IMG/VR virus record: IMGVR_UViG_3300005588_000716
Span: 1 to 34,545 of that record
Strand: one strand, 5' to 3'
DNA length: 34,545 nucleotides
DNA from: a virus
The stretch's first letter is position 1. Every line of letters starts with the position of its first letter. This document shows, piece by piece, positions 2,810-34,545 of the stretch. A model generated the notes under the pieces. It searched no databases. It was not told the origin of the DNA and saw nothing but the letters and a program-made list of their open reading frames with translations. A program made the translations under genes and the position numbers.

Positions 2810-3419
2810 AACCAGGACGGCCTAATTCCCATGTCTGGATCTTCAAATCACCCATTCTAACAATTACACCAACATCAGCATTTGGAAAATAATACACTCG
2901 CTCAACCTCTGGATCAACATTTGGTATTATTAGCATTTCATAATTTCCAACATTATCCTTAAATAATTTTTCATCGAACACCATTCCCTGATAAACGTGA
3001 TCAGAAATCCAACGCCTTTCCTTAGGCCAAGGATCTTCTTCTTCCCACCCTAAATTATCACCTGAATCTGCTTCCAGCTCCTTCTGCTTTTCAGCCAACA
3101 ATTCAGCACTTGATTTTTCGTCATAATGAAACCTCATCACCTTGGCTTTCACTATATCTACAATCAACGTGACACCGCAATCAGTATAATAATAACCTAC
3201 AGCATTCTTATTCGGTTCACCTGGCACATCGAGATATTCATATTTACCAAGCTTTGCCTTAAAATAGTCTGCATCAAATTTCATTCCCCCATAAACATTA
3301 TCCTCAACCCATTTGTGTTCTTTTGAAAGGGAACCACTAGACTGGGCTTGAACAGCTACGCACTGGACAAAAAGTGTTACCATCAAAAGAACAACGTATA
3401 CACACGAAAACCTTTTCAT
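2793..3419 (-). CDS. Secreted protein with two tandem ~65-residue repeats (moron)
   Basis: I do not recognise the family. The chosen ATG (3419) follows GGAG with 6-base spacing; an earlier in-frame ATG at 3431 would put that Shine-Dalgarno inside the gene. The 208-residue product starts with a classic signal peptide: MKR, a hydrophobic core VYVVLLMVTLFVQCVA, then a likely cut after VQA-Q. The mature part holds two copies of one unit. Copy one begins HKWVEDNVYGGMKFDADYF and copy two RRWISDHVYQGMVFDEKLF; each continues to a G-x-YE core and a Y-Y-F/T...GV.L/IV strand. It is transcribed against its neighbours, is AT-rich, and is bounded by short direct repeats, all typical of a lysogenic-conversion gene. 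An exported role in the lysogen is inferred; the molecular function is unknown. Confidence 0.8.
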   Translation of the reverse strand: MKRFSCVYVVLLMVTLFVQCVAVQAQSSGSLSKEHKWVEDNVYGGMKFDADYFKAKLGKYEYLDVPGEPNKNAVGYYYTDCGVTLIVDIVKAKVMRFHYDEKSSAELLAEKQKELEADSGDNLGWEEEDPWPKERRWISDHVYQGMVFDEKLFKDNVGNYEMLIIPNVDPEVERVYYFPNADVGVIVRMGDLKIQTWELGRPGFKKFF

Positions 3420-13286: not shown

Positions 13287-13910
13287 GTGAAACTTATCAA
13301 CATTACAAACACCACCCTTGTTTACAAGGATAAAGATATTGCCCCGGGCGCTGAATTCGACGCCACAAAGAAGGACGCAGAATCCCTGATCGATTCTGAA
13401 TATGCGCTCGAAGCGGATCAAGTTGAAGCCGCCAAGGAAGAGAAGAAGATCAGCTCTTTTCAGCCACCGACAGTCGAAAAATCCAGCGCCGACACAGTTA
13501 CCGTCGACGGAGTAGTCTACAAAGCCGCTGATCTAGTTAAGGCCAATCAGGAACTTGGAGATTTGGTTGCCGACTTGGTCGACGAAGACGATGCAATCAA
13601 ACGAGCTGAAATGGCAGAGTCTGTGATTGTCGAAGCCTTCGAGAAAAAGGATTACCCGGAAGGCATTAAAGCCCTTCACGCTTCCAGGTCCGCCGATCCC
13701 GACAAGGAAAAGATTGCAGACTTATGTCATATCGACGGCATTGGAAAAAAATCTGCTACCGAGCTAATCAAACTTGGGATCAATAGCGTTGAGGAGTTGT
13801 CCTGCGCCGATCCCGAAAAAATTGCCGAGGTCAAAGGTATCGGCGACGAAGAAGCACTAGGAATGATCAATCAGGCAGTTGAGTTGATCAACTCTAATAA
13901 TCAGGAGTAA
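13287..13910 (+). CDS. Head-region protein with C-terminal helix-hairpin-helix domain
   Basis: 207 residues starting at GTG after AGGCAGG. The first 45 residues (KLINITNTTLVY...IAPGAEFDA) form a small beta unit like other short proteins found after capsid genes. An acidic, alanine-rich linker follows. Residues about 145-205 hold two helix-hairpin-helix motifs (HIDGIGKKSATELIKLGI and VKGIGDEEALGMINQA) of the kind seen in RNA polymerase alpha-CTD, NusA and DNA ligase, which bind nucleic acid or act as interaction modules. The gene is tightly packed between capsid and connector genes. Role unknown; capsid-DNA contact or connector function is possible. Confidence 0.75.
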   Translation: MKLINITNTTLVYKDKDIAPGAEFDATKKDAESLIDSEYALEADQVEAAKEEKKISSFQPPTVEKSSADTVTVDGVVYKAADLVKANQELGDLVADLVDEDDAIKRAEMAESVIVEAFEKKDYPEGIKALHASRSADPDKEKIADLCHIDGIGKKSATELIKLGINSVEELSCADPEKIAEVKGIGDEEALGMINQAVELINSNNQE

Positions 13911-20640: not shown

Positions 20641-21664
20641 AATCGAGTTCAGGATAAACGGCAAAGTGATCACCGGTTGGGATATGGTTCAGGTCACACA
20701 TGCGATTGACAGCCTGGCCGGAACATTTGTATTACGAACGCAAACCAGTCAACTCGAGGCAATTTGCAACGCCTTAAATACCGATGAACCATGTTCAATT
20801 GTGATCAACAACGAGCAGGTTTTGATCGGTTATATCGATCTAATCAATCCGCTAATTCAAGGATCTGAAAGTTCAGTCACCGTCATGGGTCGCAGCCATG
20901 CAGCCGACTTGATAGATAGTTCAATCGACAGCGATAAACATGAATTCAACAACATAAAACTAGATGCGTTTATTCAGCAATTGATTGAACCCTACGACTT
21001 TGAACTCCTGATCAGTAATGCACCGGCGACTATAGGGGAACCATTTGCATCCATCGTAACGATGCCGACTTGGTCACCATGGGATGCAATTACCCACGCA
21101 TGTAAACGCAGGATGATTTTACCCATTGCAGGTGTTCATAAAAATATTTTTCTGACTACACCTGGCAGTTTCGGACGATCAGCCGATTTAGTCTATGGAC
21201 AGAACATCAAAAAGATTGAGGAGAAAAACAGACGCGACAGCCGTTTCTCTGAGATCATTATCAAGGGTAAAGCCAACAGCGACGACTTTTCAAGTAGCGA
21301 GGAAATCTCAGCCAGCACGAAGGATCCTGACATAAAACGCCATCGACCGAAAATTCTACAGGTCAGCGGGATTACCCAGGATTATGCGCAAGAACGGGCA
21401 AATTGGGAGACAAATATCCGAGCGGCAAAATCAAGAGAAATATCTGTTTCGATTCCTGGATTTACCCAACCCGACGGTTCACTCTGGAAATATAACACAC
21501 TCGCCCGAACGGTCATTCCAGCACTTGGACTCGACACGGACAGATTGATCGCAAAACGGATGTTCAAAAAATTCAACGAAGGATCTGAAACACAATTAAC
21601 ACTCGTTCGTCCGGATGCCTTCCAATTCAAACCTGAAGTCGAAATCAAAGAAGAATCCTGGTAA
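20630..21664 (+). CDS. Mu gp44/gpP-like baseplate hub protein
   Basis: 344 residues from ATG 20630 (GAGGTG upstream, inside the preceding gene). The pattern 'I.G.VI.GWDMVQVTHAIDSLAGTFVL', 'VLIGYIDLINPLIQGSESSVTVMGRSHAADLIDSSI' and 'W.PWDAITHACKRRMILPI' is the phage late control D/gpP group, structural analogues of T4 gp27 that form the hub above the spike. It is followed, with one-base overlap, by the spike gene. Confidence 0.85.
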   Translation: MLTKIEFRINGKVITGWDMVQVTHAIDSLAGTFVLRTQTSQLEAICNALNTDEPCSIVINNEQVLIGYIDLINPLIQGSESSVTVMGRSHAADLIDSSIDSDKHEFNNIKLDAFIQQLIEPYDFELLISNAPATIGEPFASIVTMPTWSPWDAITHACKRRMILPIAGVHKNIFLTTPGSFGRSADLVYGQNIKKIEEKNRRDSRFSEIIIKGKANSDDFSSSEEISASTKDPDIKRHRPKILQVSGITQDYAQERANWETNIRAAKSREISVSIPGFTQPDGSLWKYNTLARTVIPALGLDTDRLIAKRMFKKFNEGSETQLTLVRPDAFQFKPEVEIKEESW

Positions 21665-22173
21665 TGCTCTCAGACATTTTAGATAAAATAAAAAATCTTT
21701 TCAGCACTGGAACAATTGAACAGGTCAACGATAATGATCCAGTTCAAAAAGTTAGGGTAAAACTTTTTGGGAAAGGTTTACGCTCATCGCTGACCCGAAT
21801 ACAGCAGTACGGTTTCACTTCAGTTCCGGGAAAAGATGCCAGTTGCATTGTGATTAATCTCGACGGTAAAGAGGTTGTCATAGCTGTTGAAGATTTCAGT
21901 TTCCGGAAAAAAGAAATGTCAGAAGGCGATGTCGCAGTTTACGACAAACGCGGATCATTTATTCTGTTAAAATCCGGTGGCGAAATCGATATCGAATCAG
22001 AAAACGCAGTTAATGTCAACACTGCCAAAGCAATTTTGAACGCGGATGAGGTTCACTTGGGTGGTGATTGCACCGGCGATCCACTTACCGGAGTTGCGAC
22101 TGGACATTCACTTGCTCCGTCCGGTGGCGGACCAATCACAGAAAATTCAACAAAGGTATTTGCCAAATCATGA
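21664..22173 (+). CDS. Mu gp45-like baseplate spike / assembly protein
   Basis: 169 residues. An OB-fold-like first part (V.DNDPVQKVRVKLFGKGLRSSLTRIQQYGFTSVPGKDASCIVI) is followed by repeated short beta segments (GSFILLKSGGEIDIESENAVNVNT) and a close 'HLGGDCTGDPLTGVATGHSLAPSGGG'. This is the Mu gp45/P2 gpV type of trimeric membrane-puncturing spike. Start and stop both overlap neighbours. Confidence 0.85.
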   Translation: MLSDILDKIKNLFSTGTIEQVNDNDPVQKVRVKLFGKGLRSSLTRIQQYGFTSVPGKDASCIVINLDGKEVVIAVEDFSFRKKEMSEGDVAVYDKRGSFILLKSGGEIDIESENAVNVNTAKAILNADEVHLGGDCTGDPLTGVATGHSLAPSGGGPITENSTKVFAKS

Positions 22174-22679
22174 GTTTCTCTGGCGACATAAAAATAAACC
22201 TGGTAGATCCTGCTGGCTTCGATATCGAAATCACTGACGGCGATTTTAGCCAGGACGACGGCATCCTGACCGCGATTCTGATCAGTCTGTTTACCGACCG
22301 TCAAGCATCGACTGACGATCCGCTTCCGGGAAATAATTCAGACCGTCGTGGATGGTGGGCTGATGAATTATTCAGCGAGCCCATCGGTTCAAAATTGTGG
22401 CTATTGGAACGAGCGAAGTTGACCGAAAACAACATCGCACTCTTTACACAATACGCTGAGGACGCTCTCAAATGGATGGTCAACCGGAAACTTTGTAGCA
22501 AGGTCACAATCACTGTTTCTCGCGATTCATCAAACCTTGAAAAGCTGAACTTCACAATTGGGATCAGCCGGACAGGGAAGAGGTCAACAGCCAGCAGCCA
22601 GACAACATCGGAACTGCTTTATAATTTTAATCTGAAATGGGACACAATGTCGGCATCACTTTCAGGGAGTAGCGAATAA
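22170..22679 (+). CDS. Mu gp46-like baseplate wedge protein
   Basis: 169 residues from ATG 22170, overlapping the spike stop (ATGA). 'GDFSQDDGILTAILISLFTDRQA', 'RRGWWADEL......GSKLWLLERAKLTENN' and 'AEDALKWMV' are the hallmarks of the GP46 family. These are gp25-like wedge proteins, which start sheath assembly. The next gene overlaps by one base. Confidence 0.88.
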   Translation: MSFSGDIKINLVDPAGFDIEITDGDFSQDDGILTAILISLFTDRQASTDDPLPGNNSDRRGWWADELFSEPIGSKLWLLERAKLTENNIALFTQYAEDALKWMVNRKLCSKVTITVSRDSSNLEKLNFTIGISRTGKRSTASSQTTSELLYNFNLKWDTMSASLSGSSE

Positions 22680-23779
22680 TGGCATTCACTCGACCTACAA
22701 AAAACGAACTTAAAACGCGGATCGGCAACGATTTTACAAGTCGTCTGTCCGGTACTTCATCCATATTTCAAAACGCACTGATTCAAGTTTTTGTGGCGGT
22801 CTACGCTGGACTATTCCACATCCTTTATGGTGTTCTCGCGCAACTGGAAAAAGAAATCTTTGTTAAAACTGCCGGTGATATCACACCACACGAAGAGGTT
22901 TCACCGTTAACACGAAAACCAGCTGCCTACGCATCCGGATCAATTTTAATCACCGGGACAGCAGCGTCGGTCATTCCAGTTGATACGGTTTTTCAGCGAT
23001 CAGACAACACCGATTATAAAACCGCGAACGAGGTCACCATTCCTGCAGGTGGTTCGATTGCCGTTGACGTTGAAGCATCGGTTGCTGGACTCGACGGAAA
23101 CGTCGATTCAGGAATCCTCTCGCTAGTTTCACCAATTGCCGGAGTCGACAATGATGCCACGATCGAAAGTGACGGCATTTCTGGCGGTGCCGATCTGGAA
23201 AGCGACACGTCCCTGGTAGCACGAATTGTTAAAGATCAACAAACCGGTGCAACTGAAATCGGAAATCTATCCGACTATGAACGTTGGGCTGAATCGGTCA
23301 GTGGCGTTCGTAAAGCCTGGGCGTATCGAGCGTACTCTGGCGCCGGAACGATTGGACTTTCATTTGCCGCCACCGGTACAAATCCGATTCCATCAGCGAC
23401 ACTTCGCAACACCGTTCAGGCGTACATCGAAGATTCGTCCAGAATGCCGGGCGCGGCATCACTGACCATGATCACTCTCTCGCAGGTATCACTTTCACTG
23501 ACAGTTCACCCTGTCGAGGATCTGGACGACGATACAAAAACGACGATCCGTGAAAATATTCAAGAGTTGATTTTTGACAAAGTCACACCTGGCGACTACA
23601 TGCCATTCAGCGTAATTCATCAGGCATTCCAACAGGCAGGAGTTCGCTCGTACACCGTCGACAATGTGACGGTGAACTGGAACGATGGCACCGGCGAACA
23701 TACCGATCACGGCGAAAACGACATCAGCCTGTCTGCCGGACAGATAGTTGTCCTCACATCACTAACCTGGGTGGAATAA
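22679..23779 (+). CDS. Baseplate J-like protein, Mu gp47
   Basis: 366 residues. A helical N-terminus ([10 protein letters not shown]) is followed by '[42 protein letters not shown]' and '[49 protein letters not shown]', the classic baseplate J core. The C-terminal part is another alpha-beta domain. It forms the baseplate wedge with gp46. Instead of the expected gp48-like gene, the next start (one-base overlap) is that of a single-stranded DNA-binding protein. Confidence 0.92.
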
Positions 23780-24243
23780 TGGTCAATAAAGTAATTCTAA
23801 TCGGGAACCTTGGGAAGGATCCTGAGCTGACACACACGCCCAACGGTGCGGCAGTCGCCAAGGTTACTGTTGCAACAACCGAGCACTGGACCGACAAACA
23901 GGGTAATAAACAGGAACAGACCGAATGGCACAACTTGGTATTCTGGAACCGTTCCGCCGAAGTCGTCAACGAGTACCTGGCGAAAGGTTCAAAAATCTAC
24001 GTCGAAGGCAAACTTCATTATCGATCATGGGAAGGGCAGGACGGCCAGAAACGATATGCGACTGACATCGTTGTAAAGTCTTTCCAGTTTTTAAGCACTC
24101 GCGGATCCGGCAGCCAGGACAACCACCCGGCGAAGAATGATCAGAAACCGAAACAACAGTCACAGCAGACTCATCAGCCGCAAGGCGGTCAACAGGATGA
24201 CGGTTCGTTCGGTTCAGCCGACGACGACGATATGCCGTTTTAA
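23779..24243 (+). CDS. ssb: Single-stranded DNA-binding protein
   Basis: 154 residues. The OB-fold begins [20 protein letters not shown] and contains the conserved '[55 protein letters not shown]' series. A Gln- and Gly-rich linker follows, then the acidic tip DDDDMPF that docks replication and repair partners. It is a complete, ordinary bacterial-type SSB. What is odd is its place: its start overlaps the baseplate J stop (TAATG), inside the late tail operon, so it would be made late with structural proteins. A G-rich repeat element lies directly downstream. Confidence 0.95.
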
Positions 24244-24414
24244 AGGGTAGGGCACCCAGTGGGAAGGGTTACGAGTTGTGGGGGTTAAGGTACACATGTC
24301 GTGGTGGACCACCACTGGAGTAGGACCACTTGTCGTAGGGGATACCAGTCGAGAGGGGATACCAGTCGACACCGGTGATGAAACGTTATCGGTGACATTA
24401 AAAAGGTTTTTCAC
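24244..24414 (+). repeat. G-rich non-coding element with degenerate tandem repeats and hairpins
   Basis: 171 bases without a credible gene and strongly G-biased on the plus strand. AGGGGATACCAGTCGA occurs exactly twice, at 24337-24352 and 24354-24369. Looser units of similar form precede it (TGGACCACCACTGGAG and TAGGACCACTTGTCG from about 24306 on, and TAGGGCACCCAGTGGG at about 24248). GTGGTGG pairs with CCACCAC at 24301-24315 around one base. CACCG (24370-24374) can pair with CGGTG (24390-24394). A structured RNA, a protein-binding site or remnant DNA are all possible. No T run marks it as a terminator. Confidence 0.65.
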
Positions 24415-24966
24415 ATGAATCAATTCCAAAATAGATACAGTGCAGGTGATTATGCATCAATGATCTGGCAGCTATTCCCAAAAGGATTACTCTGGACACA
24501 ACTTCGCGAATCAGCAACCATGCAAAATCTTGTGGATGCATTCGCCCAGGAACCGAAACGGTTCAGCGATGCGGTTGAAGAGATTCGGAATGAATCGTTT
24601 CCTGAAATCGCCGACAATCTGATACCCTGGGCAGATCGAACCGGCGTTAAACAATATGACGATGAGACCGACGAAATCTATCGCAAACGTATAGTCATGC
24701 AAACGCGAGAGCAGGTCGACCCGACAGACGCTTACCTGATCAGCTATCTCGCAGAACTAGGATATACGATCACCATTGAATCACCGTTACCAGGCAAACG
24801 AATCATTCACGTTCAGCACTCATCACCGGTGGTTGTTTTCCGCGCAGGAGTCAGCCGTGCAGGTGATAAACTTGTCACCTACAACGCAGTCCAGGCTGTT
24901 GAAGATATTTGCACGCGCCTTACACCTGGACACATTGATCTGTCATTTACTTACCTGGAGACATAA
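24415..24966 (+). CDS. Mu gp48-like baseplate protein (DUF2313/YmfQ)
   Basis: 183 residues. 'LFPKGLLWTQLRES.TMQNLVDAFAQEPKRF', 'PWADRTGVKQYDDETDEIYRKRIVMQTREQ' and the late 'VVFRAGVSRAGDKLV.YNAVQAVEDICTRLTPGHIDLSFTY' are the DUF2313 pattern. These proteins connect baseplate wedges with the tail fibre. In Mu-like phages it directly follows gp47; here ssb and the G-rich element intervene. Confidence 0.88.
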   Translation: MNQFQNRYSAGDYASMIWQLFPKGLLWTQLRESATMQNLVDAFAQEPKRFSDAVEEIRNESFPEIADNLIPWADRTGVKQYDDETDEIYRKRIVMQTREQVDPTDAYLISYLAELGYTITIESPLPGKRIIHVQHSSPVVVFRAGVSRAGDKLVTYNAVQAVEDICTRLTPGHIDLSFTYLET

Positions 24967-25055: not shown

Positions 25056-28000
25056 ATGAAGCAAATAATGTTCGGGATTCTGATAACGCTATTATCTGGA
25101 GTTCCAATCATGGCAAAAACAACTTTAAACAACAACGATATTGTCACACCCGATTTTCTAAATGCACTAAACAACCACAACCATCGAGGCGAAAACGCCG
25201 ATGGCAGTAACTCACCGTTGGTTATGCACGAGGAAGTCGCATCAGCAAGTCATCGCCTGGTCGGATCGAAATCTGCCCTTGAAACAGCCATTTCCGAAAT
25301 TGCTACCAATCCAGCACAGATCGTTATTAGCAAATCGATAGCTTTAACATCAGCCGACACGATCACTATTCCCGCCAACGTCGCGGTCAAAATTGAAGGT
25401 GAAGGAATACTTAACGGCGATCTTTCCAATATTCGGTTTTTCGGCAAACTAAACGGAGACCATCAGCTATTCGATTGCACTGTCCCTCCAAAAATCTACA
25501 ATGCCGACCACATCAATGCCCTATGGTTCGGACTGGACATTTTAACCGACAACAGCGATGCGTTAAACATGGCCGCCCAGGCAGCGGCATTGACAGGAAA
25601 AAAGTTATTCATTCCCCATGTTGGAAATCCTGACCTAGAGGTTGACTTGGCGACTAATGTTCCGGTCGCGTACAACACCAAAGTTCGCATCCCGGTCAAA
25701 ATTGAAAATGCAGTTGTAGGTCAATGGATAACGATCACCGATTCGGACTCAGATGTTCACGTCGGGCAGATAACGGCCATAACCGACACCACAACAGATA
25801 CATCAATTTTATTTGATGCAGGACTGACCTATTCTTCGCTTAATAAAATTGATGGTATTCCGTGCGGATCAACAGTCACCATTTCGGGAAATATTGACGT
25901 TGAACAGTTATCACCGATTATTTTTACCGGCACTAGCAACACAACGTCGCTCGTGGTTGGTGATCAGGACGACAACTCCAGGCATAAAATATACCATCTG
26001 GCTGGAGCAATTCGGGTAATTCAATCTGACTGGACATCACAAGCATGTGTCGGTGTTAAACTTCAAAATTTAGCAGAATGCGAAGTTGTGGTGAATCAGG
26101 TAACAGGCTTTACAGTCGGAATTGAAGCGGTCGGTTATACACGTGGACTCATCAACTCCAATCTAAAACATGGACTTATCAGTAATAACTACATTGGAAT
26201 AAAACTCACCGCCGATGGAATTACCAGCGATTTAGCAACCGCCACAATAAATTACGCCGACGGGAAAACCACAATCACAACCCTCACCGATCACGGATTC
26301 ACGACCGACGATATAGGCAGTAACGCCCGAACACTTGGGCTTTTGCCAAATGACAGTGAGGATGGGCTATACGAGATTGATAGCGTCCCATCAAGTACCC
26401 AAATCGTCCTGATTGGAGAAATCACAACGGGCGCCACACGCGGTGCATTGATCAAGTCGTTCGGATGGTGCAACCAAAATCACATTCATGGTGGACGCAT
26501 TTTCTGCGGAAATATCCCGCTCCACAGCACATCGGATCGTATCGGCATTCTCATCACCTGCGAAGGTCCGACAGCCTCGGGAATTCCCTATTGTTATACC
26601 AATAACGGAAACAACTTTTTTAATCAATCAATCGATTTGGGAGATTCATATACTACCGGTGATTGCCTACCGATTAAAATTCTTTCTGGCGGTTACAACT
26701 ATTTCAACATCCGTGATGAAGGAAACGACTCGCCAACCATGCACACACTCGGGGAATCATACAACAACCAGGTCGAGCTGGATTATGGCGAGCCCACTAT
26801 TCTGGACGAATCGAGTTTTGCCGGGAATACGGTCAGTAAACTTACTGAACCAACACAAATACTGCCGGTCTTTTCAATTTCGGAACTGCAAAACAAGATT
26901 ATTCAATATGCCGGCGACAACAATTACCAGTACATTCCTGGACTAATGCGTGCACGATCCGGCGACGCATATTCCTATACGGAATTCCGCAGCACTGCGA
27001 TCAAATACGATGATGGAGTAGATTTTAGCAACAACGATTGCCCGGCAATTTTTGTCAACACTGAAACGGCTAAGACATTCATCGTGTCCAGGGATATTGT
27101 ATTAGGAACCGGTGGATATATTGTTATTCAGGCGCTCGACGGTGCAGATCCTTCTACCGCCAATATTCTTGACCCTGCGACCGGAAATCATATCCGAGGA
27201 ATAAAATCTGGTGAATCAAAATTTGCATCCACAACTAATTTTGGCGGTGCATTCAGATCATCGTTCAGTAATTTAAAAAATACACAGTTCACTGTCGCTG
27301 ACAACGTCAAATCTATTCGACTAATCATTCAGCGACCATCAACCGGGGATTTCAGATTACGGGGATTTTCAGTCTATTCGGTAAGCAATCACACGTTTGC
27401 ATTTACCCTACCAACAAATTCAAATTACATCCCCAATTCATTCAGAGTAAACCAACCGCCTGAGAACGAGATATATCCTGAAGGGACAATAGCCTTTAAT
27501 GGTGCACCTGGGCGAGGCGAAGCTTATGCCTGGATGCAGTCCAGATATCTTTCAAAATCTCTTTCCGGCGGTGCAACCACCGGCGATACAGTTTTATCCA
27601 TCAACTCAGTGTCGTCAGTCAAAGGTGGGATGCTAGCTGCAGTTTTACTTGATTCAGGGGATTACTTCTTCAGCGAAATTACCAATCTGACAACTTCAAC
27701 CATTACTCTTGGTGATGAAATTACAGGAGACGCAGCGTCCGGAAATACAATCATTATCAATGACTGGCAGCCTATTGCTCAGTCAGGAACAAGGTCAATC
27801 ACGCCCGACATTACCAACCCACATCATTATGGAGAAATCGCGATTAATTCCGCAGCCGACAAATGCTACATCGCATTATCACAAAACGGACAGTATATCT
27901 ACACCGGCGATTTTACCGTTGCAGACGCAACCGGCAATATCACACTTAATATCGAAAATTCAAACCTAGTTGCTGATAAGAAAGTAACAATTTCAGGTTA

Positions 28001-28283
28001 TGCCGACGATGCCGAAACTACAGCGTCACGTTACAACGGGGAGTGGGAAGTAGTATCCAAAACAAATGCGAACGTAACCCTTGCCCCATTGGACAGCCAA
28101 ACCTATGACGCTGGCGAAACAACCATATACACTTGTACTGCTACAGGCGCTGGCGACTGGCATCAAATCTCTAACAACGTTGCAGCCAATGTTACCGACG
28201 CTGACGATTCCAGCCTGGCAACCCTGGCCGCGTCAATCGACGCTATCCGTGACGCTTTAGTCGCTGCAGGATTGATGGAATAA
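25056..28283 (+). CDS. Tailspike / tail fibre with pectate-lyase-like beta-helix
   Basis: 1075 residues. After the sequence 'LNNNDIVTPDFLNALNNHNHRGENADGSN' typical of phage fibres, residues about 85-210 read as a tailspike head: 'IANALWFGLDILTDNSDALNMAAQAA.LTGKKLFIPH'-like pattern of the pectate_lyase_3 beta-helix found in polysaccharide-degrading spikes. The rest is beta-rich, and the last 30 residues form a short helix (SIDAIRDALVAAGLM) suited to trimerisation. Two starts are possible. ATG 25056 gives a hydrophobic, signal-like first 18 residues; ATG 25110 (MAKTTLNN) has GGAG at 8-base spacing and is the more usual fibre N-terminus. Depolymerase activity is inferred. Confidence 0.85.
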   Translation: MKQIMFGILITLLSGVPIMAKTTLNNNDIVTPDFLNALNNHNHRGENADGSNSPLVMHEEVASASHRLVGSKSALETAISEIATNPAQIVISKSIALTSADTITIPANVAVKIEGEGILNGDLSNIRFFGKLNGDHQLFDCTVPPKIYNADHINALWFGLDILTDNSDALNMAAQAAALTGKKLFIPHVGNPDLEVDLATNVPVAYNTKVRIPVKIENAVVGQWITITDSDSDVHVGQITAITDTTTDTSILFDAGLTYSSLNKIDGIPCGSTVTISGNIDVEQLSPIIFTGTSNTTSLVVGDQDDNSRHKIYHLAGAIRVIQSDWTSQACVGVKLQNLAECEVVVNQVTGFTVGIEAVGYTRGLINSNLKHGLISNNYIGIKLTADGITSDLATATINYADGKTTITTLTDHGFTTDDIGSNARTLGLLPNDSEDGLYEIDSVPSSTQIVLIGEITTGATRGALIKSFGWCNQNHIHGGRIFCGNIPLHSTSDRIGILITCEGPTASGIPYCYTNNGNNFFNQSIDLGDSYTTGDCLPIKILSGGYNYFNIRDEGNDSPTMHTLGESYNNQVELDYGEPTILDESSFAGNTVSKLTEPTQILPVFSISELQNKIIQYAGDNNYQYIPGLMRARSGDAYSYTEFRSTAIKYDDGVDFSNNDCPAIFVNTETAKTFIVSRDIVLGTGGYIVIQALDGADPSTANILDPATGNHIRGIKSGESKFASTTNFGGAFRSSFSNLKNTQFTVADNVKSIRLIIQRPSTGDFRLRGFSVYSVSNHTFAFTLPTNSNYIPNSFRVNQPPENEIYPEGTIAFNGAPGRGEAYAWMQSRYLSKSLSGGATTGDTVLSINSVSSVKGGMLAAVLLDSGDYFFSEITNLTTSTITLGDEITGDAASGNTIIINDWQPIAQSGTRSITPDITNPHHYGEIAINSAADKCYIALSQNGQYIYTGDFTVADATGNITLNIENSNLVADKKVTISGYADDAETTASRYNGEWEVVSKTNANVTLAPLDSQTYDAGETTIYTCTATGAGDWHQISNNVAANVTDADDSSLATLAASIDAIRDALVAAGLME

Positions 28284-28319: not shown

Positions 28320-28569
28320 CTAGCGAAACCTGGATACATCGATAATATTTCCTTAACACCTTCAGGAGTGGTCATTTGGAGAAATTCTCACCAGAATTTT
28401 CGCCGATAATTAATCACCACCTCCCGTACTCTTGGAAACTGAACAATTTATATGATCGAGTAAATAATTGTTGCATACAATAATAGAAAATGTTAGACTT
28501 TGGTTTAATGAGTGGGAAAGATTTCACAATATTGGATTTCACAAACCGTCAATTCACTGGGGAGGGAAA

Positions 28570-29772
28570 GTGGCGGATAATAAAGCTATTTCTGAAACTA
28601 GCAAATTACCAACCAAAGAAAACACATCTTTAATTATTTCAAGTTCAGGGCTTTCAGTAGGAGTAATTGGGCTACTCTTACAGTTAAAGGCAATGGAGTT
28701 TATTGATTTTAGGATTATTAACATATTTTGGGGATTGATTATTTTTGGTTCAGCAGTCGTTTTTTTCTTATCACTTCGCCAAAAAGCCATCAGGTGGAAT
28801 TCAACCTTAAAAAACTACCAAGCGACATTAAAAACACAGGGCGAATTATTTGCTTATGAAATAAAAGGCATATCAGAAAACTATTCCAAAGACCTCAAAG
28901 ACACCAAAGAAGAGTTTCAAAAAACAATTGACACTACAAGGAAAGAACACGATAGAAAATCTGAAGAGTATGCAAAAGAATCAGAAAGGCTATCTCAAGA
29001 GTATACTAAATTGCTTGATGAACGGATAGAAAGCCTAACAAAGAATTTTAATGATACTTTTGTTGCAACCCATAACACACTGAAAAGAAAAGCCAGAGTA
29101 GCAGAGGTTGCAAATGATATCCATTTAGCTATCCACCATATAAGAAATTCAATAGCCGAGCTACGAGCGAACGGAAAAAGCACAGAAGAATCAGTTCTTG
29201 CTTCTCTAGATTCTCTTCATGCATGGCACAGGGTAATGAAACATATTACTGGAAACGATGTAAGGGTCATTATCAAGCATGTTTACGTAAAAAACAACAA
29301 AAACGCGACTTTAACTATCAAGGATATTTCACCAAAAGACCCAAACTTGTTAGTAGATACATTCTTAAGAGTCCCAAGGGAACAAAAGAATGGCAAAACA
29401 GTAAAATTATCAGATAACACTGACATGAAAGAAGTTATTTCAAGTGATGAATTTGTATACTATCTTAATAATGATATCAAGGATGATCTTAAAAACGGTA
29501 CCTTCAAGAGCTCTTGGATAGGTAGCAATATTAGCAAGCGCCCCTTCAGCTCTACGCTTGTTTGGCCGATAAGACTTATAGATAAGAACGTAGCGACTCT
29601 TCATGGTTTTTTGATTGTTGACTCAAAGAACGTTAATATTTTTAACCCAAGTGTTGATGTAAGCCTTGGATTTATGTACGCTGATGCGCTATACATATTA
29701 TTGGATGCGCTTAAAGCCTACGATAAACTTGCGGCCCCAGCGGCACCAAAGGATGGACAAAAAAATGGATAA
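28570..29772 (+). CDS. Membrane-anchored coiled-coil protein with GAF-like C-terminal domain
   Basis: Not a family I can name. I chose GTG 28570, which follows GGGGAGGG; the frame is open to TTG 28468 and the start is uncertain. The 400-residue product has two membrane helices (about 20-40 and 48-69), a long charged coiled coil (about 85-165) and a cytosolic domain. The domain's end, 'STLVWPIRLID...ATLHGFLIVDSKN...FNPSVDVSLGFMYADALYILLDAL', follows GAF-domain logic, suggesting ligand sensing. It lies after the tailspike, is AT-rich, and overlaps a 59-residue gene. Likely a lysogen-expressed accessory gene (exclusion or defence); this is inference from place and architecture. Confidence 0.65.
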   Translation: MADNKAISETSKLPTKENTSLIISSSGLSVGVIGLLLQLKAMEFIDFRIINIFWGLIIFGSAVVFFLSLRQKAIRWNSTLKNYQATLKTQGELFAYEIKGISENYSKDLKDTKEEFQKTIDTTRKEHDRKSEEYAKESERLSQEYTKLLDERIESLTKNFNDTFVATHNTLKRKARVAEVANDIHLAIHHIRNSIAELRANGKSTEESVLASLDSLHAWHRVMKHITGNDVRVIIKHVYVKNNKNATLTIKDISPKDPNLLVDTFLRVPREQKNGKTVKLSDNTDMKEVISSDEFVYYLNNDIKDDLKNGTFKSSWIGSNISKRPFSSTLVWPIRLIDKNVATLHGFLIVDSKNVNIFNPSVDVSLGFMYADALYILLDALKAYDKLAAPAAPKDGQKNG

Positions 29773-29944
29773 CAAAACGGAAAAACCTACTAACGCTAAA
29801 GTAGTTAAAGTGAGAATCGCTGTTTCGAATGGCGATCAACTTACTAAATACAAAGAAATCCGCAACCGAATTTATGAGAGAAGAAACATTTTCTACTCGA
29901 CTGTTCCAATGACCAATATTATGCAGCTCGCTGGTAATAAATAA
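29765..29944 (+). CDS. 59-residue protein coupled to the membrane coiled-coil gene
   Basis: A small basic protein (MDNKTEKPTNAKVVKVRIAV...) with no membrane segment. Its ATG lies 8 bases inside the end of the upstream gene, so the two are likely made together. AAAGGATGG lies about 7-10 bases upstream. It could be a partner or regulator of the membrane protein. No family recognised. Confidence 0.55.
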   Translation: MDNKTEKPTNAKVVKVRIAVSNGDQLTKYKEIRNRIYERRNIFYSTVPMTNIMQLAGNK

Positions 29945-30633: not shown

Positions 30634-30647
30634 TATTCCCTCCAACC

Positions 30648-30690
30648 AAAAGGGCGAAACGACAGAGTCCTCACCCTTATCACTTCGCCC
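30648..30690 (-). promoter_or_regulatory. Attenuator-like hairpin in the leader of membrane protein A
   Basis: On the minus strand GGGCGAA (30690-30684) pairs with TTCGCCC (30658-30652) and is followed by TTTT. Inside, AGGG can pair with CTCT around a TGAGGA loop. It ends about 15 bases before the start codon. The same structure stands before protein B (32217-32257), with an almost unchanged loop sequence. This suggests a selected RNA element, such as an attenuator or protein-binding leader. Confidence 0.6.
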
Positions 30691-30796
30691 ATATAAAAAA
30701 ATGCTTTATCCCTGATCGAAAATATAAGACGTTAAGAATTAACTATACAATATTCAAGAATTCATAATCATTAAAGCTTTGAAAATGGAGAGTCAA
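30651..30796. repeat. Copy A of a ~147-bp direct repeat (promoter plus leader)
   Basis: Matches 32220-32366 almost end to end, with a few substitutions and single-base or two-base indels. It runs from the TTGACT end (30796) through promoter, operator-like palindrome and hairpin to just before the coding sequence. The flanking sequences differ, so the duplicated unit is exactly the control region. Confidence 0.9.
30721..30750 (-). promoter_or_regulatory. Promoter A with palindromic operator in the spacer
   Basis: On the minus strand TTGTAT (30750-30745), 18 bases, TATATT (30726-30721). The spacer holds the inverted repeat GTTAATTCTTAAC (30743-30731). This arrangement is what a repressor site looks like. 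Promoter B has the same parts with 17-base spacing. Confidence 0.55.
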
Positions 30797-30808
30797 AAAG
30801 AATCAGTA

Positions 30809-32200: not shown

Positions 32201-32216
32201 TCTTATCCCTAACAAG

Positions 32217-32257
32217 AAAAGGGCGAAACGACAGAGTCCTCACCCTTTCACTTCGCC
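32217..32257 (-). promoter_or_regulatory. Attenuator-like hairpin in the leader of membrane protein B
   Basis: GGCGAA (32257-32252, minus strand) pairs with TTCGCC (32227-32222), followed by C and TTTT. It has the same inner AGGG/CTCT helix and TGAGGA loop as the copy before protein A. It ends about 16 bases upstream of the start codon. Confidence 0.6.
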
Positions 32258-32366
32258 TATATTAAAAATGAATGCTTTATCCCTGACCGAGAATATAAGA
32301 AGTTAAGAATTAACTTACAATATTCAAGAATTCATAATCATTAAAGGATTGAAAATGGAGAGTCAA
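32220..32366. repeat. Copy B of the ~147-bp direct repeat (promoter plus leader)
   Basis: The second copy of the repeat at 30651-30796, about 1.57 kb away and in the same orientation. It lies between membrane protein B and the sequence leading to the tRNA. Recombination between the copies would delete the peptide operon and the pseudogene remnant. Confidence 0.9.
32292..32320 (-). promoter_or_regulatory. Promoter B with palindromic operator in the spacer
   Basis: TTGTAA (32320-32315), 17 bases, TATATT (32297-32292) on the minus strand. The spacer contains GTTAATTCTTAAC (32314-32302), identical to the palindrome in promoter A. Shared control of both membrane proteins is likely. Confidence 0.6.
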
Positions 32367-32430
32367 CGGGAAGATGTACATCATTTAAACTACCCAGTAG
32401 AACCACAATAGAACCATGGTGACTATACAT

Positions 32431-32460: not shown

Positions 32461-32477
32461 AAGTATAATAATAACAG

Positions 32478-32564
32478 CGGGGAGGGAGGGATTCGAACCC
32501 TCGGTACGCGCGAACGCACACTCGCTTAGCAGGCGAGCACCTTAAGCCACTCGGTCACCTCCCC
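32478..32564 (-). tRNA. tRNA-Ser (anticodon GCU)
   Basis: 87 bases. The acceptor stem GGGGAGG pairs with CCTCCCC, and G is the discriminator; CCA is not encoded. The anticodon stem CTCGC/GCGAG frames the loop CTGCTAA with anticodon GCT. A long variable arm, as in serine tRNAs, follows, and the T arm contains GGTTCGAATCC. It reads AGC/AGU codons. Its 3' end points into the phage accessory region, the usual geometry of a tRNA attachment site; the other att copy is not in the window. The 140 bases on its 5' side (32565-32704) hold nothing I recognise. Confidence 0.97.
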
Positions 32565-33513: not shown

Positions 33514-34545
33514 TCACATTTTCGGAATTGGACGGTTCCCCTCCAGATAGTACTCTCTGAACCATTCTACATAAGCTTTAATGCCTTCCTTGACTTTGAT
33601 AGAAGGCTTATAGCCGGTCGCTTCATGAAGGCTGTCAACGTTGCTGGAAGTGCTAGGAACATCGCCAGGTTGCATTTCAACACGCTTAACAATAGCCTTT
33701 TTACCAAGGTATTCTTCGATATAATGCAAGTACGTATCCAGTCGAACAGGATTGCCGGCTCCAATGTTGTGGAGACGATAGGGAGCAAGACTGCTACTCG
33801 GATCGGGATTTTTACCATCCCAATCTGGGTTTCCTTCAGGAATAACAGGGATAAGTTTTGTTATGCCTTCAACAATATCATCGACGTAAGTGAAGTCGCG
33901 TTGCATGTCACCGTAATTGAAAAGCATCAAGGGTTCGTCGTGATGGATGGCTCGGCTGAACTTCGCCAGTGCCATGTCTGGACGACCCCAAGGACCATAA
34001 ACCGTAAAGAACCTCAAACCGGTTGTTGGTAAACCGAAAAGATGGGAATAGGTATGGGCCATCAATTCATTGGATTTCTTAGTCGCAGCATATAGAGAAA
34101 TCGGATGATCAACGTTGTCGGTCACAGAGAAGGGCTCAGTCTTATTTAAACCATAAACCGAACTGGATGATGCATATAGCAGGTGACCAACTTTATTGTG
34201 ACGGCAGTTTTCCAATAGGTTGAAAAAGCCGATCATGTTTGAGTCTATGTAAGCGCGGGGATTCTCAATGGAATAACGGACACCGGCCTGTGCTGCAAGG
34301 TTGACAACCGCATCAAATTTTTCTTCAGTGAAGAGAGAATTGATCGCTTCAGAATCTTCCAGATTGATCTTTACCAGTTTGAAGTTGGGATTTGAATCGA
34401 TCAGCTTTATTCTGTCTTTTTTCAGATTGACATCGTAGTAATCGTTGAAGTTGTCGAGCCCAACGATCTGGTGATTATCCTTTAAGAGTCGTCGTGAGAG
34501 ATGAAATCCGATAAAGCCTGCGGCACCAGTGATAAGTATTTTCAT
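33514..34545 (-). CDS. NAD-dependent epimerase, UDP-glucuronate 4-epimerase type
   Basis: Complete at 343 residues; its ATG is the last three bases of the window. An extended short-chain dehydrogenase fold: NAD-binding GAAGFIG (7-13), Asp31 in GLDNFNDYYD, the serine-rich strand ASSSSVYG (125-132), and catalytic Tyr152 and Lys156 in LYAATKK. 'DNFNDYYDVNLKKDR' after the first strand and 'TVYGPWGRPDMA' are characteristic of enzymes that interconvert UDP-glucuronate and UDP-galacturonate for capsule or lipopolysaccharide. Cytosolic. No phage relation; it marks the start of host sequence with the adjacent Wzi-like remnant. Confidence 0.93.
   Translation of the reverse strand: MKILITGAAGFIGFHLSRRLLKDNHQIVGLDNFNDYYDVNLKKDRIKLIDSNPNFKLVKINLEDSEAINSLFTEEKFDAVVNLAAQAGVRYSIENPRAYIDSNMIGFFNLLENCRHNKVGHLLYASSSSVYGLNKTEPFSVTDNVDHPISLYAATKKSNELMAHTYSHLFGLPTTGLRFFTVYGPWGRPDMALAKFSRAIHHDEPLMLFNYGDMQRDFTYVDDIVEGITKLIPVIPEGNPDWDGKNPDPSSSLAPYRLHNIGAGNPVRLDTYLHYIEEYLGKKAIVKRVEMQPGDVPSTSSNVDSLHEATGYKPSIKVKEGIKAYVEWFREYYLEGNRPIPKM

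Follow-up and report, generated by a model that had tools for sequence, protein, structure and literature searches.

A gene for a single-stranded DNA-binding protein (SSB) lies inside the baseplate operon of a Mu-type tail module in the viral record IMGVR_UViG_3300005588_000716. The window is that whole IMG/VR record, 34,545 bases long and classed as linear. The gene is found between baseplate J, the gp47-like wedge gene, and the gp48-like wedge gene. This is a real position, seen nowhere else in the sample and apparently rare. The favored reading, with a probability of roughly 0.6, is that a functional and conventional SSB was gained as late-operon accessory cargo at the gp47/gp48 junction, is coupled to J, and acts in the cell.

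The open reading frame (ORF) is complete and ends in ...SADDDDMPF*. As the initial annotation had it, this is a whole SSB with a DDDDMPF tip whose start overlaps the J stop. The protein matches the Pfam SSB family PF00436 at residues 2-105 (135.8 bits, E 6.5e-40, cut-off 26), covering model positions 1-104 of 104, and matches phrog_44 with 187.6 bits. Solved SSB structures are matched as well, including 3tqy (E 5.1e-42) and the E. coli-type 1eqq (E 8.3e-38). In E. coli SSB, the aromatic residues that contact single-stranded DNA (ssDNA) are W40, W54, F60, and W88. In the window SSB, W37, W50, and W84 show no variation when the protein is aligned with phage and bacterial SSBs, and W56 occupies the position of E. 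coli F60. An acidic tip ending in PF is of the same type as in gammaproteobacterial SSBs. Judged by its sequence, the protein is a canonical bacterial-type SSB, conventional and unremarkable, and appears to carry everything that a working SSB requires; tetramer formation and a role on ssDNA are predicted.

The likeness to the bacterial SSB family (E. coli SSB 1eqq, 3tqy, PF00436) extends over the whole OB domain, the ssDNA-contacting aromatics, the low-complexity linker, and the acidic tip. The window SSB differs from that family in being encoded in a phage tail operon and in having W at the F60 position, and its identity to any SSB seen is at most about 60%. The SSBs of Pararheinheimera phage KLER1-1 (gp65), Pasteurella phage Pm86, and Xanthomonas phage DIBBI belong to the same family, with 53-61% identity over the OB domain. 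Their genes adjoin exonuclease, Bet/ERF, or helicase genes, whereas the window SSB adjoins baseplate genes.

The position was assessed from the side of J using at least 212 loci that encode a relative of J (roughly 25-40% identity), collected by three alignment-guided IMG/VR scans together with phage and genome searches. The best 80 loci were taken per scan, and two of the three scans list part of the matches. Usable relatives, defined as those in which the sequence includes the stop of J and extends 700 nt or more past it, number 187. A gp48 gene is recognized in 180 of these and lies no more than 60 nt from the J stop in 162, which bears out the claim that the gp47-like and gp48-like genes are normally adjacent. 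The same adjacency is annotated in Mu, Bordetella PBb002, Chromohalobacter YPCBV-1, and Pantoea AH07. An SSB at the J/gp48 junction was found in 0 of the 187 by tblastn and an unfiltered six-frame search with an SSB profile hidden Markov model, so the arrangement is not a widespread feature of these relatives. Nor was one found at this junction in 369 genomes sampled from the gammaproteobacterial class and 247 from the Geobacter-type phylum, where the best J has 38% identity. Among records with J relatives, 1 of 42 has any SSB, about 22 kb from J. Single-protein IMG/VR scans with J, sheath, and the terminase large subunit (TerL) gave no close relatives of the phage, and the closest J among the alignment-guided matches listed has 40% identity. 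As no J above 40% was found, an unsampled lineage closer to this phage might commonly have the SSB-in-baseplate arrangement.

From the side of the SSB, tail genes stand beside the gene at 1 of 155 SSB-encoding loci, and that one is the window's own. Among the 155, just one other SSB is near a late-type gene; it lies about 1.1 kb upstream of a relative of the terminase large subunit (L380:1123-3921).

The J stop codon TAA occupies 23777-23779 and the SSB ATG begins at 23779, giving a 1-base overlap. TAATG occurs at five junctions of the late operon (portal, 14312, gp45, gp47, and SSB). Because the motif recurs at other late junctions, the SSB start follows the style of coupling usual in this operon. 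The 9-mer GAATAATGG is common to the gp46/J (22679) and J/SSB junctions, i.e., both ends of J. Coupled late expression of the SSB would be the simplest reading, with late timing taken from operon position only.

If the SSB were a moron, expressed from a promoter of its own in the lysogen or early on, its place in the late operon would be incidental. This is the strongest of the alternatives and is nonetheless improbable. Accessory genes frequently bring their own promoters, and one promoter-like match with a TG extension lies at 23753-23780, directly before the SSB ATG. However, the promoter scan gave 3 matches where 2.6 are expected by chance, which is weak evidence against the early promoter that the initial annotation had named as a possible refutation. 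No terminator-like site was found in a scan of the SSB-gp48 gap, and the overlap of the ATG with the J stop fits coupled translation. The classical moron definition calls for both a promoter and a terminator of its own; hence the SSB is labeled only as accessory cargo.

The gp47/gp48 junction holds other genes in a minority of the 187 usable relatives. In contig L406, a free-standing 79-aa gene of the Acb2/Tad1-hairpin family (L406:2860-3099, PF24729, 61.6 bits) lies between J, which ends at 2852, and gp48, which starts at 3107. Like the SSB, it is a small non-structural gene cleanly placed at this junction; it differs in belonging to an anti-CBASS-type family of unrelated sequence. Proteins of about 740-765 aa are encoded between J and gp48 at L115:5058-7292, L089:1130-3355, L118:1221-3515, and L262:5056-7344, and the L118 insert is tail-fiber-like (phrog_37064). 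A 93-aa ORF of unclear nature is found there in L214. These inserts indicate that the junction accepts extra genes, at least once (L406) a non-structural one of counter-defense type, and the SSB can therefore be read as accessory cargo without requiring a structural role. It has one mark of an accessory gene, being absent at the site in relatives while the flanking genes are intact.

The initial annotation offered a recent insertion as one explanation. The placement of the SSB between otherwise adjacent genes, joined by a stop/start overlap, is supported, but a recent date is not, given the long SSB branch and codon usage within the range of the late genes (codon match 0.78; range 0.74-0.84). 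The tree is short (122 columns) and poorly resolved, with many forks open. In it, the window SSB has a long terminal branch (0.64) and falls outside a group, supported at 97/91, that contains the 30 sampled chromosomal SSBs and 7 phage SSBs. A branch outside the sampled chromosomal SSBs argues against a fresh copy of one of these gammaproteobacterial genes. The comparison with host SSBs proposed at the outset thus lends no support to a recent chromosomal copy, and the window SSB has no near kin in the tree. The best chromosomal matches are gammaproteobacterial, that class being also the most sampled.

In the favored reading, a probable prophage would have acquired the SSB as accessory cargo in its Mu-type tail module, at the gp47/gp48 junction. 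Transcription of the gene would go along with that of the late genes, and the TAATG overlap would couple its translation to that of baseplate J. The protein would act in the infected cell and not in the particle. The OB fold is predicted to bind ssDNA and the acidic tip to recruit partner enzymes, and the SSB may serve late replication, recombination, or concatemer formation. Several points count against this account. Late expression and coupling are deduced from the order of the genes. Since the contig is truncated on its left side, there may be a second SSB, or an early transcript may run as far as this gene. GC at third codon positions is 0.58 in the SSB and about 0.45 in its neighbors. Only the L406 gene is a clear non-structural parallel, most other junction inserts being tail or fiber proteins or of unclear type.

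A role in counter-defense is doubtful. Phage SSBs trigger several bacterial defense systems (PMC10732053), so a link to defense is possible. The timing or identity of this SSB might let late phage DNA escape, or not trigger, defenses that sense phage SSB or exposed ssDNA. The anti-CBASS-type gene at the same junction in L406 is in keeping with this. On the other side, setting off such systems would be a simpler outcome of SSB expression than blocking them; in the window, no defense or anti-defense partner was recognized beyond weak matches, and nothing points specifically to defense.

Still less likely is an SSB associated with the virion or baseplate that would be brought into the host or serve in packaging. 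Its position among the wedge genes is all that favors this. The protein is a standard SSB: it has a partner-binding tip but no additional domain. The wedge of the Mu baseplate consists of gp46, two gp47, and gp48, with no SSB-like part in the described wedge (PMC11915804), and literature searches on SSBs in baseplate operons or virions gave nothing relevant and no precedent. That the SSB is made in step with the wedges, travels on or in the virion, and enters the host with the DNA, where it would coat early single strands or blunt ssDNA-sensing defenses, is the most speculative proposal and very unlikely. An assembly artefact, in which a chimeric contig joins an SSB gene to a baseplate operon, is about as improbable as a virion protein: there is no second genome with the J-SSB join, the IMG/VR record comes without reads at hand, and GAATAATGG stands at both ends of J, but a chimera would have to arrive at a working 1-nt overlap of stop and start in the style of the operon's other junctions, codon usage shows no break at the join, and the shared 9-mer is too short for usual assembly errors.

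The features of the window are listed in Table 1.

Table 1. Coordinates of the SSB gene, its junctions, and neighboring features in the window
Feature	Position	Strand	Basis or remark
D5-type primase/helicase, phage replication module, left contig edge	16..2412	+	phrog_1829 461.7 bits; PF08706, PF22763
gp45-like baseplate spike protein	21664..22173	+	PF06890 48.3 bits
gp46-like baseplate wedge protein	22068..22679	+	PF07409 107.3 bits
Baseplate J / gp47-like wedge protein	22679..23779	+	PF04865 178.7 bits; phrog_6; C-terminus intact
TAATG stop/start overlap	23777..23781	+	inside 9-mer GAATAATGG; sequence, junction table
SSB gene	23779..24243	+	154 aa; OB domain residues 2-105; acidic tip DDDDMPF; PF00436, phrog_44, PDB matches
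SSB-gp48 gap, 171 nt	24244..24414	+	17-bp tandem repeat; no terminator-like site; no Rfam family
Possible 40-aa ORF	24296..24418	+	AAGG upstream; stop overlaps gp48 start (ATGA); unproven
gp48-like baseplate wedge protein	24415..24966	+	PF10076 48.5 bits; phrog_203
Large protein after gp48, tail-fiber position	25056..28283	+	position only; no family match

From terminase (5247) to gp48 the genes form a plus-strand cluster, in which a terminase of lambda type and head genes are joined to a contractile tail of Mu type. The order of the Mu-type baseplate operon (gp43-gp48) is kept as gp43-gp44-gp45-gp46-gp47 and then gp48; the difference is that the SSB gene and the gap come between gp47 and gp48. 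The J C-terminus has the same ..TW end as its relatives in the alignment. About 15 additional residues in this C-terminal region (window 23640-23760) are not present in aligned Mu-type relatives. A head-cluster protein (13287-13910) has a helix-hairpin-helix domain at its C-terminus (PF14520, 39.7 bits).

The SSB-gp48 gap contains a 17-bp tandem repeat at 24337-24370 (AGGGGATACCAGTCGA-G/C). The search for structured RNA in the gap gave no Rfam family and a fold z of -1.25. An ORF like the 40-aa one arises in 8% of shuffles, its codon match is low (0.66), and neither a family nor relatives were found for it.

At the right end of the record, a tRNA-Ser(GCT) gene (32477-32564) is followed by an epimerase gene on the minus strand (33514-34545). 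Together they suggest that a prophage has its right edge here, followed by host DNA, and the phage is a probable prophage. Assignment of the host by the flanking epimerase failed, its matches being spread over many phyla, all at about 60% identity. An AT-rich segment at 28468-29944 (GC 0.36) encodes a 434-aa ORF with weak matches to ZorA-like coiled coils (E 8e-5), followed by a 58-aa ORF; these are possible accessory genes at the prophage end. Two similar upstream stretches, 30645-30800 and 32215-32370 (gggcgaaacgacagagtcctcaccc... and ...attcataatcattaaag...), lie beside two minus-strand genes with no Pfam family and are perhaps a duplicated cassette.

Phage SSB genes are generally counted among the early replication genes, and their products are sensed by several bacterial defenses. 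If an SSB is indeed tied to late structural genes, bacteria would meet a protein that they monitor at a different time and dose. The gp47/gp48 junction, with an SSB here and an Acb2-type gene in L406, is a place to seek accessory and counter-defense genes in Mu-type tail operons.
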